From: an uncultured Patescibacteria group bacterium
Lineage (GTDB): Bacteria; Patescibacteriota; Minisyncoccia; Phycocordibacterales; UBA12088
Reading direction: 5' to 3'
DNA length: 45,830 bases
NCBI GenBank assembly: GCA_947259245.1
Contig: CAMYLP010000001.1
Span: forward strand, 1 to 45,830
Shown here: one piece after another, positions 3,787 to 10,413 of the stretch
How the letters are laid out: each line of letters begins with the position of its first letter
Numbering within the stretch: position 1 is the stretch's first letter
Program-made: the position numbers and the translations under genes
Notes under the pieces: model-generated
The model's input: only the letters and a program-made list of their open reading frames with translations
Database searches by the model: none
What the model was told of the DNA's origin: nothing

Positions 3787-3995
3787 GGTTCGAAGCACCA
3801 TTTTCAAGACTGCAAACAAACTTTTTTCATACACATCACAACAACTCTTTTTCAGAGTAAGCGATTATCAGATTTCCTAACAGGAGATTTCGATGAATTA
3901 GTACACCTCGGCTCAATGTGTCGCCACACTTCCACCTAGTGCCTATCAACGTAGTCGTCTCCTACGGATCTCAAATGATTCCTAATCTTGGAGTT

Positions 3996-4028
<33 letters not shown>

Positions 4029-4285
4029 ATTCCCAACTTAGCTACTCAGCGATGCCACTGGTGTGACAGCTGATAGACCAGAGGTCAGTTCATCCCGGTC
4101 CTCTCGTACTAGGGACAAATCTCCTCAAGAATCGACGCCCACGGTAGATAGAGAACCAACCTGTCTCACGCTCCTTGTCTCCTGTTTCCAGAAGGGACGG
4201 ACTGTAACTTTCTCCTGGCGGGTACTTTTTGCCAGGATAGTTGACGTTCAGTCTCTACGGGCAGGTTATGAACTTCGTTGAGAAC

Positions 4286-4315
4286 CCTGAACACTTGATA
4301 AATCAAGTGTTCAGG
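4286..4315. repeat. 13-bp perfect hairpin downstream of the intron small ORF
   Basis: CCTGAACACTTGA-TAAA-TCAAGTGTTCAGG, without a T-tract. Confidence 0.85.
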
Positions 4316-4338
4316 ATCAGTTGAGCACGGCAAGACAT

Positions 4339-4497
4339 TCACTTGCCAGTGAGAATAAATCGCAGAATCTCCCCGAGTATTTTGAGGCACTGGTTTCCAA
4401 GGAACATGGCCACGGGCAATGTTACTGCGAAGATGGCTGCGTCTTGTAGTGATATCCCCATGGGACCAAAGTCTACAAACATAGCTAGTCTCCTCAT
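4339..4497 (-). CDS. Small hydrophobic protein encoded inside the L2593 intron (52 aa, or 47 aa from the ATG at 4482)
   Basis: MRRLAMFVDFGPMGISLQDAAIFAVTLPVAMFLGNQCLKILGEILRFILTGK. GAGGAG sits 7 nt upstream of the internal ATG at 4482. Not in the supplied ORF track (<60 aa). Lies between long inverted arms. Confidence 0.5.
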   Translation of the reverse strand: MRRLAMFVDFGPMGISLQDAAIFAVTLPVAMFLGNQCLKILGEILRFILTGK

Positions 4498-4736
4498 TTG
4501 TTCTCAACGAAGTGCACAACCTTTCCCTCGGTATTGCCCTTCCTTGTTTAAGGGGAGGATTTCACCGATATCAGTCAACTTTAGCTCCGAGCACTATGAA
4601 ATGCTCAGGACCGCCGTAATAAGATTGGTCTCTACACTTTCACTGCACACTTGAAGGATGTACAGTTTATAAGACAGAAAAACTAAAACTCTCAATGTGG
4701 ATTCAGACGGTTCAAAAGTCTCATAGAAACTCCTGA

Positions 4737-4815
<79 letters not shown>

Positions 4816-4872
4816 GTGAGCCGACATCGAGGTGCCGAACTCCGCCGTCGCTATGAACGCTTGGGCGGAACT

Positions 4873-4905
<33 letters not shown>

Positions 4906-5068
4906 AATCTCTGGCCGCATCTAAAGCGTACCATCGGTTCACTAGATTCTGCTTTCGCACCTGCTCGGGATGTCCCCCTTACAGTCAAGCTGGCTTTTGC
5001 TCTTGCACTATCGGCACGGTGTCCATTCGCGCCTAGCCAACCTTTGAACCCCTCCGTTACTCTTTAGG

Positions 5069-6007
5069 CATTTGTGTTATCCAATCTTGTACTTCATAGT
5101 TTCAAGGTGTCCAACGTGCTTCTCCAACAACCGCTTCATATGTGCTGCTGATTTCGTTATCACGTAGATACGCCACATGATTCTTTTTTGCCGATGCAAA
5201 CTGGAATCAATGCCATGAAGACCAAGTGCTTTTTGTAGTTCTGTAAGCTCTGTTTTTGTAAAACCATACGTATGGATGATATAGGTTCGATGCTGCGCTG
5301 ATTTGCGCGATCCATCGTCCATATACCACACAGCTATACTAAGTGGTTTTAGCAACTTACGAATGAGTCGTGGCACTACTTTCTTTTTACCGTCATAGAA
5401 TTGCTGACCGTAAAAGCGAAATGCACCATGTGAGTAGGTGGTAAAACCAATGAATGTTCGTCCATCTTTTCGTGTTCTCACACGAGGTTTCGTACGCACC
5501 CAATCTTTAAACTCTTCGTATAACCACATGACATATTCACGTTGCGCGATACCGTGCTCTATTTTGAGACGATATGTGCGCCCGTTGTTCTGTGACTCAA
5601 GGTGGCCATCTCCTAGGAGAGTGCCAACGAGAATTTCACGCTGTCGTGTAGTGAGCTTCAGACCTTCTTTGAGCTTGTGTATGTCACCATTGTTCATGAT
5701 GTTTTGGATCCCGGTTCTGTGACCGGACTCATGGTCGCCCATGAGATCGGACTATATCTTCCACCACTTTCGTGATGGTTCTGCGTGTAGTCTCTGAGGA
5801 TCCTCAATACTGAGTTTCCTGCTGATCGTCCGCACCGCATACATTTTTACCCTCTCGACCGAAGGTAGTAGCGGATACTTCAGGTTTTTCACCACGGATG
5901 TTCCAGCATATAGCAGAATGTTTGCTCTGTGATTGCTCACAGAGACCCCCTTTTATTCGCTTGCGCGAACTTCAACGGCACGGAGTGCACCATTTGGGAC
6001 GCCCTTA
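5069..6007 (-). mobile_element. Group I intron at position equivalent to E. coli 23S 2262 (939 nt) carrying a homing endonuclease
   Basis: Exon junction GGGGCGACACCCT|CCTAAAGAGTAACGGAGG has the same length as E. coli GGGGCGGUCUCCU|CCUAAAGAGUAACGG. R element CTCAGAGACTACACG and S element AAGATATAGTCC. Intron ends in G. Confidence 0.92.
5077..5742 (-). CDS. LAGLIDADG homing endonuclease (intron-encoded)
   Basis: Two LAGLIDADG-type helices: LVGTLLGDGHLE and LSIAVWYMDDGS. ORF begins right after the S element; actual start may be the ATG at 5697. Confidence 0.93.
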   Translation of the reverse strand: MGDHESGHRTGIQNIMNNGDIHKLKEGLKLTTRQREILVGTLLGDGHLESQNNGRTYRLKIEHGIAQREYVMWLYEEFKDWVRTKPRVRTRKDGRTFIGFTTYSHGAFRFYGQQFYDGKKKVVPRLIRKLLKPLSIAVWYMDDGSRKSAQHRTYIIHTYGFTKTELTELQKALGLHGIDSSLHRQKRIMWRIYVITKSAAHMKRLLEKHVGHLETMKYKIG

Positions 6008-6338
6008 AGGGTGTCGCCCCAACAAAACTGCCTGCCACGCACTGTTCCTCATAGGTTTTGCCTATGCAGGTTAGAATCTGCACGGTGTAAGAGTGGTATT
6101 TCACTGACGACTCCACAACCCCCAAAAGGGCCGCTTCAAAGTCTCCCACCTATGCTACGCATACAACACACAGACCCAATACGAAGCTGCAGTAAAGCTC
6201 CACGGGGTCTTTCTGTCTAACCGCGGGTAACCGGCATCTTTACCGGTATTGCGTTTTCACCGAGCTATTCCTCGAGACAGTTGCCCAGTCGTTACACCAT
6301 TCGTGCGCGTCGGAATTTACCCGACAAGGAATTTCGCT

Positions 6339-6609
6339 CTCCGTTTCCTTTTGTACGAAGGACCATATCTTCATCCACTACGTGTGGAGCACGGCGTATG
6401 GTCTCTGAGGGGTCACTACAACCTGTGTCATAGGACTTCCCTGCTGATCATCTTCTCCTCGTCTCAAAGGAGTCTGACTTCCCAGCATATAGCCATGTTT
6501 GTTTGGACAAACTATACATTACTGCATAGTAAGGCAGCTTCTTGGTGTTTTATATGTTTACCCCATAATCGTTCCAGTCCTTCACGAAACATCTCTCGAT
6601 GCGTCGTGA
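6339..6609 (-). mobile_element. Minimal ORF-less group I intron at position equivalent to E. coli 23S 1931 (271 nt)
   Basis: Exon junction TAACTATAATCGTTCTAAGGT|AGCGAAATTCCTTG. R-like CCTCAGAGACCATACG and S-like AAGATATGGTCC with compensatory P7 (ACCAT/ATGGT). Intron ends in G. Confidence 0.92.
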
Positions 6610-7394
6610 ACCTTAGAACGATTATAGTTATCGCTGACATTGACCAGGGCTTGTATCGGCCAGCAAAAGCACATTCTGCGCGCGACACGTTCGTGCGCAC
6701 AATGTGCTCTTACCACCAATATTTAACCTTCTGGCATTGGTCAGGTGTCACCCCCTATACATCCTCTTACGAGTTCGCAGGGAGCTGTGTTTTTGGTAAA
6801 CAGTCGCCAGGCATACTTTCGCTGCGGCCTCTGACGTGAATCAGAGGCAGGCCTTATCCCTAAGTTACGGCCGCTTTTTTGCCGAGTTCCTTGAGGAAAA
6901 ATCACTCGTTCGTCTTGGTCTTCTCGACCCTCCCACCTGTGTCGGTTTACGGTACGGACTCTACATAGTTAGAGCTTAGAAGCTTTTCTTGGAAGCGTGC
7001 TCCCCTGAATTGCCGTTGGCCGAAGCCGCCAGCTTTCCACTCCGCTTGGGCTATGGTACCCGGATTTACCTAAGTACCACCCTCACGGCATGGACGACAA
7101 ACCAATAAGTCGCTCAGAGTACAACACTCCGTCCCTCCTTCGCACTATGCAGAGGCGATGGAATATTAACCATCTGTCCATCGGGTCCCCCTTTCGGGAT
7201 CCCCTTAGGCCCGGCTAACCCTTGGCTGATCACCATAGCCAAGGAAACCTCGGGATTTCGACGTGCAGGGATCTCACCTGCAATGCGGTTACTCGCGCCG
7301 GCATTCTCACTTCCATACGCTCCACCATGGGTTACCCCTTTGGCTTCATCGCAGAATGGAACGCTCTCCTACCACTCGTATGCTTCATTGAGGA

Positions 7395-7796
7395 GGCAAA
7401 CACCGACGTGTTTGCCAAAATACTTTTCAGGATTTTGAACAGGGTAAGGATTTGAACCTTACTACCCTTCATCGCAGCGTGCGTGACGGCTCTTGCCCAC
7501 GAGCTACCTGCCCAAAACCCAGCTCTAAAAGAACATAGGGGCCCGGGGGGCCGCGTTCGACCCCATCCTACTCGAAGACGTGAAGAGCATACCTGCCGGC
7601 ATAGACGCGCGTCACCTGAGACACGACTCTTTGGTTTACACGACACTGTCGTGTCCTGGCCATTGAGTGTGACGTCGGCGTGGCGAACGCTGGTATGATT
7701 ACACATCTCGGTAGGCAACCTGCGCGGCATTTGGAGTGGCCTCTGGGGGACCCAACCTCACTCGGCGTTGCAGTATTGTTCCGGGCAAACTTAATT
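7395..7796 (-). other. ~400-nt intervening sequence in the 23S hairpin corresponding to the helix 45 region
   Basis: Flanked by perfect 18-bp complementary arms CGTATGCTTCATTGAGGA (7377-7394) and TCCTCAATGAAGCATACG (7797-7814), between conserved ACCGAAACTGCGGAT and GTGGTAGGAGAGCG blocks where E. coli has a short hairpin. Confidence 0.88.
7437..7513 (-). other. 77-nt tRNA-like structure inside the 23S intervening sequence
   Basis: Minus strand GGGCAGG-TA-GCTC-GTGGGCAA-GAGC-C-GTCAC-GCACGCT-GCGAT-GAAGGGTA-GTAAGG-TTCAAAT-CCTTAC-CCTGTTC. Acceptor, D and T arms pair, but the T stem is 6 bp, U33 is absent and there is no CCA. Confidence 0.55.
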
Positions 7797-8498
7797 TCCT
7801 CAATGAAGCATACGAATCCGCAGTTTCGGTACCATGCTTAAGCCCCGATCATCTTCGGCGCAAAATCTCTGGATCAGTGAGCTGTTACGCTATCTTTAAA
7901 GGATGGCTGCTTCTAAGCCAACCTCCTGATTGTCACAGAAATTTCACCTCCTTAAGATGCACTGAGCATGGATTTAGGGACCTTAACTGGCGGTCTGGGC
8001 TGTTTCCCTTTCGAACAGTGGAGCTTAGCCCCCACGTTCTGACTGCCACGCTATTAACTACTGGTATTCGGAGTTTGATAGAAATGACGAGGTTTCCCCC
8101 TATTCATTTCTTCCAGTGCTCTACCCCCAGTAGGAACACATGACGCTAGTCCTAAAACTATTTCGGAGAGAACCAGCTATTGCGAAGTTCGATTAGCTTT
8201 TCACTCCTTACCACAAGTCATCCGAGCGTGTTGTACAGCGCAACGGTTCGGGCCTCCACGGCTTGTTACAGCCGCTTCACCCTGCTCATGGTAAGCTCAC
8301 TTCGCTTCGGGTCTTGCGCGTGCGACTATTTGTTCGCCCTATTCAGACTCGGTTTCCCTGTGCCTCCGGGGGTCTCCCCTTAGGCAGCCACATGCGCAAA
8401 CTCGCCGGCTCATTCTTCAATAGGCATGCCGTCAGGGTGTAAACACCCCTCCGACTCCTTGTAAGCATACGGTTTCAGATCTATTTCACTCCCCTCCC

Positions 8499-8544
<46 letters not shown>

Positions 8545-9266
8545 TTGAAGAGTATTTAGCCTTGGGTGTTAGTCCACCCGGATTCACGCCAGCTATTCGT
8601 GTCCGACGCTACTCAGGTACGACAGCAAGAGAGACGTAATTGTTTTCGTGTACGGGGCTATTACCCGCTGGGGCCACGCTTTCCAGCGTGTTCCACTAAC
8701 AATCACATTTTGTGACTCTCCTCGTTAAGAAGCTGTCGCCCTACAACCCCAACACCCGAAAGTGTTGGTTTGGGCTCCTTCCGTTTCGCTCGCCGCTACT
8801 CAGGAAATGCCAGGATTTTTTACCGTATTGACAAACATCGTCAACACGGTAAAAAATCCGTATATTGGTCTCTATTCCTCTAGGTACTAAGATGTTTCAA
8901 TTCCCTAGGTATACTCTCGAACGCAAGGTTCGAGTGACCGAGGTCTACTCGGCCGGGTTTCCCCATTCAGATATCTCCGGATCAAAGGTTGCTAGACACC
9001 TCCCCGAAGCTTTACGCAGTCGTGCCACGTCTTTCATCGCCTCTTCAAGCCAAGGCATCCACCATATGCCCTTAGGTCTCCTGTTAGGAAACCTAACAAC
9101 CGCTTCACATACATCGGTGATTTAACGATGTACGCGTGTTGTGTCTGGCACGCTAAACGCTAACGCTACCAGACAGGTGTATGCTATTTCCTTCTTGCTG
9201 CTCCGAAGAACCTCAAGAAGAAGTTTGCTTGCGTTCGTAAGCACCACGCTTACGAACTTACCCGCT

Positions 9267-9453: not shown

Positions 9454-9481
9454 AGTATATAGGAGTATGGGTGCTTGTCAA
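9454..9481 (-). promoter_or_regulatory. Sigma70-type promoter for the 23S-5S transcript
   Basis: Minus-strand TTGACA-16 nt-TATACT. Confidence 0.75.
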
Positions 9482-9562: not shown

Positions 9563-9591
9563 TTGACAAATGGCACAATATGAATTACAAT
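9563..9591 (+). promoter_or_regulatory. Sigma70-type promoter of ncRNA candidate
   Basis: TTGACA-17 nt-TACAAT. Confidence 0.8.
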
Positions 9592-9597
9592 CCCACA

Positions 9598-9785
9598 AGT
9601 TTTATAGGTGCCAATGCCACAGTGCTTCGGGATATGTCGGGAATACCCCACCCAACTAGTAGCGCCTGCGTATGTCGGCGATCTCTCGTGCAGCACCATT
9701 GGCATAGTGAGGGCAGTGCCCTCACGCGCTGGGTTTTCCCCACCCAGCTGTGCCGGTCCGATTATGGGCCGGCACTTTTATTTTA
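9598..9785 (+). ncRNA. Unassigned ~186-nt structured ncRNA
   Basis: Promoter immediately upstream. TGCCAATG...CATTGGCA closing stem, GTGAGGGC-AGT-GCCCTCAC, GCTGGGT...ACCCAGC and terminator GTGCCGGTCC...GGGCCGGCACTTTTATTTT. Overlapping ORFs look non-coding. Confidence 0.6.
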
Positions 9786-9798
9786 TACACGACCATCA

Positions 9799-10413
9799 CT
9801 ACGCAGCGGCGATCCGCCTGACGACGGCTGTGTGTGGAAAATCCATGACATCACGAACGAGCTTGTCTCGTACGCGTCTGCGGTATTTGTAGTCTGCAGT
9901 ATTCAATACTGCATATCGTATTTCCTGACCGCACTCAGCTTCCAAGAGTGACACGGCGTTCTTGAGTGCTGTCTCACTCAAACGATCGCCCACTACGAGC
10001 ATGTCGATACCTCGATCCTTTTCACCTATGAGGTGCCCCGTGAGCACGAGCAGTTTGATGGTCCCAGCACCACGTATACGTTTGCGCACATCGCTACCTG
10101 AAACAACAAGTGTCTTTCGTAGGAATGCGGTGAGCGCGTCCTGGTACGGATACTTTGCGCTCAGTACCCAACCGATGGTTTTTCGCTTCTTCATCTTCTT
10201 GCTGCCCGGGCGTACCACTTCCTTATAGAACGTTTTTCTTTGAATGATACCCGCACGTGCAAGCGCGGCGAGTTCTCTGCTTGCGGTATCCGGGGTCACG
10301 CGGGCCCGTGAGACCACGCCATCTCTGTCATACACGACATCCGGATTGAAGGCGAACAGCCGGAGGAGCTTTACTCGTGCCGGAGAGCCAAAGAGTTTAC
10401 TTAAATACTCCAT
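9799..10413 (-). CDS. Winged-helix DNA-binding protein with C-terminal nucleotidyltransferase-like domain
   Basis: N-terminal wHTH (LFGSPARVKLLRLFAFNPD...TPDTASRELAALARAGII). C-terminal VLTGHLIGEKDRGIDMLVVGD resembles an MNT-type fold. Confidence 0.7.
   Translation of the reverse strand: MEYLSKLFGSPARVKLLRLFAFNPDVVYDRDGVVSRARVTPDTASRELAALARAGIIQRKTFYKEVVRPGSKKMKKRKTIGWVLSAKYPYQDALTAFLRKTLVVSGSDVRKRIRGAGTIKLLVLTGHLIGEKDRGIDMLVVGDRLSETALKNAVSLLEAECGQEIRYAVLNTADYKYRRRVRDKLVRDVMDFPHTAVVRRIAAA

Follow-up and report, generated by a model that had tools for sequence, protein, structure and literature searches.

A putative transcription unit between the 23S rRNA gene and a ribosomal protein block

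The window analysed here (the whole stretch of DNA, 45,830 nt) belongs to an uncultured ultra-small bacterium (Parcubacteria/Kaiserbacteria) with a genome of 0.95 Mb. A putative RNA unit at positions 9598–9785 of this contig sits between the 5′ end of the 23S rRNA gene (3877–9085, minus strand) and the 3′ end of an open reading frame of 204 amino acids, ORF9799 (9799–10413, minus strand). ORF9799, the conserved convergent neighbour of the RNA unit, has no Pfam match and is part of an L10-L12-ORF9799 block; it stands after L10 and L12 and is present in nine of ten family genomes, and the order L10-L12-ORF9799-gap-23S is conserved through much of the order. The divergent 23S rRNA promoter (TTGACA-16-TATACT) stands at 9454–9481 on the minus strand, and an identical or very close site lies at a similar distance from the 23S gene in most of the relatives or gaps examined.

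The 23S gene itself is 5.2 kb long and carries large insertions, among them a group I intron (5728–5977) and a LAGLIDADG open reading frame (5077–5742); large insertions of this sort are common in CPR rRNA genes (PMC11270868). The 16S gene lies at G000:C17:37056–38566, on another contig than the 23S-5S genes of the window, and none is found upstream of this 23S gene, so that the 16S and 23S-5S genes of this genome look unlinked.

The RNA unit is preceded on the plus strand by a σ70-type promoter, TTGACA-17-TACAAT (9563–9591), which matches the consensus at 11 of 12 positions. A site this good is expected by chance on the given strand of a gap of the same composition with P 0.0046, and the two strands of 246 kb of this genome hold only eight sites of equal quality. 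One of the other seven is the rRNA promoter, and the two stand back-to-back here. At its 3′ end the unit has an intrinsic terminator (9750–9785, plus strand), in which the hairpin GTGCCGGTCC/GGGCCGGCAC is followed by TTTTATTTTA and which faces the plus strand only. Promoter and terminator thus lie on the same strand with no gene downstream, ORF9799 being convergent, which is the arrangement that marks a stand-alone small-RNA gene. The genome holds a single copy of the unit. The original prediction had described this promoter and a strong U-tract terminator; on re-check both were found, in the proposed orientation, and all of its coordinates, sequence and motifs were as claimed.

A stable 3′ hairpin array and a loosely closed 5′ domain

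The predicted RNA of about 188 nt (9598–9785, plus strand) has a minimum free energy (MFE) of –81.4 kcal/mol (z –4.46), and none of 200 shuffled sequences is as stable. Its architecture consists of a loosely closed domain of ~97 nt followed by two tandem hairpins and the terminator. The significance of the fold is carried by the three 3′ hairpins (9706–9785; z –7.62): hairpin 1 (GTGAGGGC/GCCCTCAC, 9707–9725, plus strand), hairpin 2 (GCTGGGT/ACCCAGC, 9728–9748, plus strand) and the terminator, in agreement with the initial proposal of a tandem array of three hairpins that closes with the terminator.

In the MFE structure the 5′ domain (9608–9705, plus strand) is closed by GTGCCAATG/CATTGGCAT and contains GTGCT/AGCAC and CGCC/GGCG pairings together with a C-rich loop. 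Within it, a C-rich, mostly unpaired stretch, AATACCCCACCCAACTAGT (9642–9660, plus strand), is the segment for which we infer a function, and the counterparts in two sister species (see below) have similar C-rich loops. The 5′ domain by itself is not more stable than shuffles (z –0.69); its existence therefore rests on comparison rather than on stability. The closed domain of the original prediction accordingly gained a matching closing stem in sister species but no backing from stability.

The locus matches no known RNA family and shows no coding signal

A search of all Rfam models, as the original prediction had proposed, returned nothing at 9598–9785 at gathering scores and no convincing family at E ≤ 10, where the only two matches at the locus were at chance level (E 1.6 and E 4.2). 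The RNA resembles tmRNA, RNase P RNA and bacterial SRP RNA only in being, like these housekeeping RNAs, stand-alone. An identity with either of the first two is rejected, as the locus has no match to them and both genes are found on another contig (tmRNA, G000:C6:35510–35892; RNase P RNA, G000:C6:18440–18785). Bacterial SRP RNA (RF00169) is likewise rejected: its covariance model has no match at the locus, and the domain IV hairpin motif is not seen. No small SRP RNA exceeds the Rfam cut-off in 31 genomes of the order, in agreement with a published survey that reports both ffh and 4.5S RNA as missing from Parcubacteria (PMC4508563). The 6S covariance model (RF00013) has no match at the locus even at E 10, and no 6S RNA exceeds the cut-off in 25 genomes. 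The earlier reluctance to assign the RNA to tmRNA, RNase P, SRP or 6S is thus borne out by the absence of a match to any of them at the locus.

The open reading frames that overlap the unit, described earlier as devoid of domain features, have no Pfam or PHROG match and no coding signal. Together, these observations support a stand-alone non-coding RNA gene, divergent from the 23S promoter and outside known families, as the best reading of the locus.

Counterparts at the same place in two sister species

The gap between ORF9799 and the 23S gene is assembled in five species of the genus, namely the present genome (G000) and G001, G002, G003 and G004, and two of the four others have a counterpart on the same strand. 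The G004 counterpart (L037 8143–8331, minus strand) is a 189-nt unit with a near-consensus promoter (TTGACA-17-TATTAT); the last of its three 3′ hairpins (z –5.8) finishes with GGCGCC-TTTTT. The G001 counterpart (L034 1224–1356, plus strand) is a 133-nt unit with a terminator, and its promoter combines an extended –10 element (TGCTATAGT) with a weak –35 element. The same placement beside the rRNA promoter, a check suggested at the outset, recurs in these two sister species, with promoter, closing stem and terminator.

No recognisable copy is present in the gap of G002, where a promoter-like site stands without a terminator, or in that of G003, which has neither. Although the resolution of the tree is poor, it joins G001 and G002 (bootstrap 83–90), which makes loss of the unit in G002 the simpler reading. 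In other families, the gap holds no recognisable copy and is usually occupied by an MscS-like gene, recognised by eye, or by other genes.

Homology suggested by architecture rather than by primary sequence

G000 and G004 share the same closing hexamer, GCCAAT/ATTGGC; it encloses 82 nt and 77 nt, respectively, and is followed in both by 82 nt, with the ends as cut by us. A random G004-like sequence would share such a closing stem with P 1.5e-4, a value that, like other probabilities attached to the CCAA/UUGG stem, is somewhat flattering because the stem was noticed after inspection. In G001 the closing stem is CCAAG/CTTGG, which amounts to one compensatory change from U-A to G-C; this is the only double-sided pair change among the three members, whose sequences are strongly diverged. 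A descriptor comprising the CCAA..TTGG stem and a terminator matches three of the five genus gaps and only three places elsewhere in 391 kb of sequence from other relatives and the own genome; on inspection, these three proved to be coding or IS200-like and were rejected as similar RNAs.

When 146 terminator-ended windows were ranked by structure-profile likeness to the G000 RNA, the G004 unit came second, with an energy-corrected z of about 3. The first rank is held by a window overlapping the L10 leader of a relative. The likeness to the L10 leader (RF00557) comprises the structure profile of this one leader and a shared genomic neighbourhood; however, the leader lies in cis upstream of rplJ, whereas the RNA unit lies downstream on the other strand and has no Rfam match to it at E 10.

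Beyond the closing stem, the sequences of the three units are not alignable. The identity between G000 and G004 is not above that of shuffles (62 of 500 shuffled G004 sequences align as well), and a MAFFT alignment of the members was not usable. A one-sequence covariance model run over the relatives recovered only itself and neither G004 nor G001; with filters off, the same model gave weak partial matches in both (5.3–8.7 bits). On this evidence, the units of G000, G004 and G001 are quite likely homologous, by architecture rather than by primary sequence.

Nucleotide searches of 60 relatives found only the unit itself and a 28-nt promoter-like match, a profile search with ORF9799 over genome contigs led to the same four sister species only, and viral contigs gave no match apart from one 16-mer that does not extend. 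A promoter plus CCAA pattern in 41 genomes yielded no convincing copy among the loci checked beyond the G000 and G004 sites; four loci inspected closely were rejected: the one in G003 is a small-ORF unit, those in G023 and G024 are coding or unclear, and the one in G005 is a hairpin unit with no relation to this RNA. In a search of 61 genomes, the GCCAAT/ATTGGC pattern occurs somewhat above a reversed control, mostly by chance among the matches listed, and no other site with both promoter and terminator was found in 30 loci checked among these. Along the way, an unassigned intergenic unit with a promoter, two strong hairpins and a terminator was noted at L148 1501–1700 (G005:C8:31365), and an IS200/REP-transposase-like open reading frame with a strong palindrome and terminator lies, as judged by eye, upstream of L10 in G003 (L035, about 4985–5730).

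Proposed role and alternative explanations

The unit is gene-like, with promoter and terminator signals, hairpins, a single copy and counterparts in the same place. It most likely specifies a genus-restricted, fast-evolving, trans-acting small RNA, and probably represents a new RNA family of a known kind, likewise fast-evolving and confined to the level of the genus. We would put about an even chance on the specific proposal of a stand-alone small-RNA gene whose promoter drives a ~188-nt RNA with a 5′ domain acting in trans. Here we infer transcription, stabilisation of the RNA by its 3′ hairpins and trans action of the 5′ domain, as follows. The strong promoter, divergent from that of the rRNA gene, would drive synthesis of a ~188-nt RNA; of the three tandem hairpins in its 3′ half, the last would end transcription, and the 3′ hairpins may protect the RNA from 3′ exonucleases. 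The 5′ domain, a predicted rod with a CCAA/UUGG closing stem and a C-rich unpaired stretch, is likely the working part and would act in trans, either through base-pairing with a small number of mRNAs or by binding a protein. In having its own promoter, an intrinsic terminator and a C-rich unpaired stretch, the unit resembles trans-acting small RNAs with C-rich single-stranded loops; it differs from them in that there is no sequence relation, this genome has few Shine-Dalgarno sites and the target is putative.

The strongest dull rival is a purely buffering transcript. The RNA itself would be inert, and the promoter together with the hairpin and terminator block would keep the region upstream of the rRNA gene active and stop read-through into the L10-L12-ORF9799 operon. 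This is consistent with the convergent arrangement with ORF9799, with the retention of promoter and terminator while the sequence drifts and with the hairpins being the significant part of the fold. We nevertheless consider it unlikely: the shared closing stem of the 5′ domain and the near-equal lengths in G000 and G004 (188 and 189 nt) are not expected of an inert transcript, a single terminator would be enough, and G002 and G003 manage without the block.

A divergent RNA polymerase-binding regulator, that is, an analogue of 6S RNA or of Ms1 of actinobacteria beside the rRNA promoter that it helps control, is attractive because the unit adjoins that promoter and no 6S RNA is detectable; with 6S RNA below cut-off in 25 genomes, a substitute is conceivable. 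The unit is stand-alone like 6S RNA (RF00013) and Ms1, is of similar length, and its ~188 nt and rod-like 5′ domain fit loosely. Ms1 too was tracked by gene synteny (PMC9130861), as the RNA unit is here, and provides a precedent for finding such RNAs in this way. Yet the locus gives no match to the 6S covariance model, and the conserved central bubble of the 6S type is not seen in the predicted folds: G000 has an asymmetric 30/3-nt loop, G004 and G001 have other loops, and no central bubble is common to the three. The unit is also missing at this place in two of the five sister species and has two extra hairpins between rod and terminator. To our knowledge, 6S RNA has no two additional hairpins at that position. 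An analogue of this kind is therefore quite improbable, and we assign a similarly low probability to a rapidly evolving RNA, confined to the genus, that would link rRNA output to the state of the cell by binding to ribosomal factors or RNA polymerase.

Less probable again is that the unit is what remains of a mobile element, or of the MscS-like gene found in the gap in other families. An MscS-like open reading frame, recognised by eye, does stand in the gap of several of these families, and an IS200-type palindrome with a terminator occurs elsewhere in G003; against this origin, the overlapping frames match no protein family, the unit is single-copy, and in three species the promoter and the terminator are combined in a single oriented unit. 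Finally, small RNAs with C-rich loops and UCCC motifs are known elsewhere, and all three members have C-rich unpaired stretches, but a broad anti-Shine-Dalgarno RNA whose loop masks the ribosome binding sites of many mRNAs is the least probable of all and is not supported, as in 216 start regions from crude gene calls (ten 20-kb stretches plus the window) the loop complement GGGTGG is absent (0/216) and GGAGG is rare (5.6%).

The preferred reading, a stand-alone small RNA acting in trans, concerns organisms for whose regulatory RNAs a limited literature search returned no description (Parcubacteria/Patescibacteria). If the RNA did couple rRNA output to cell state, a lineage with no detectable 6S or SRP RNA would have an RNA that nothing but its position next to the rRNA promoter gives away. 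More generally, synteny combined with promoter and terminator signals can reveal RNAs that are missed by Rfam-style searches, and a single-copy RNA gene that sister species keep beside the rRNA promoter, but that sequence search fails to detect, would offer a concrete point of entry.
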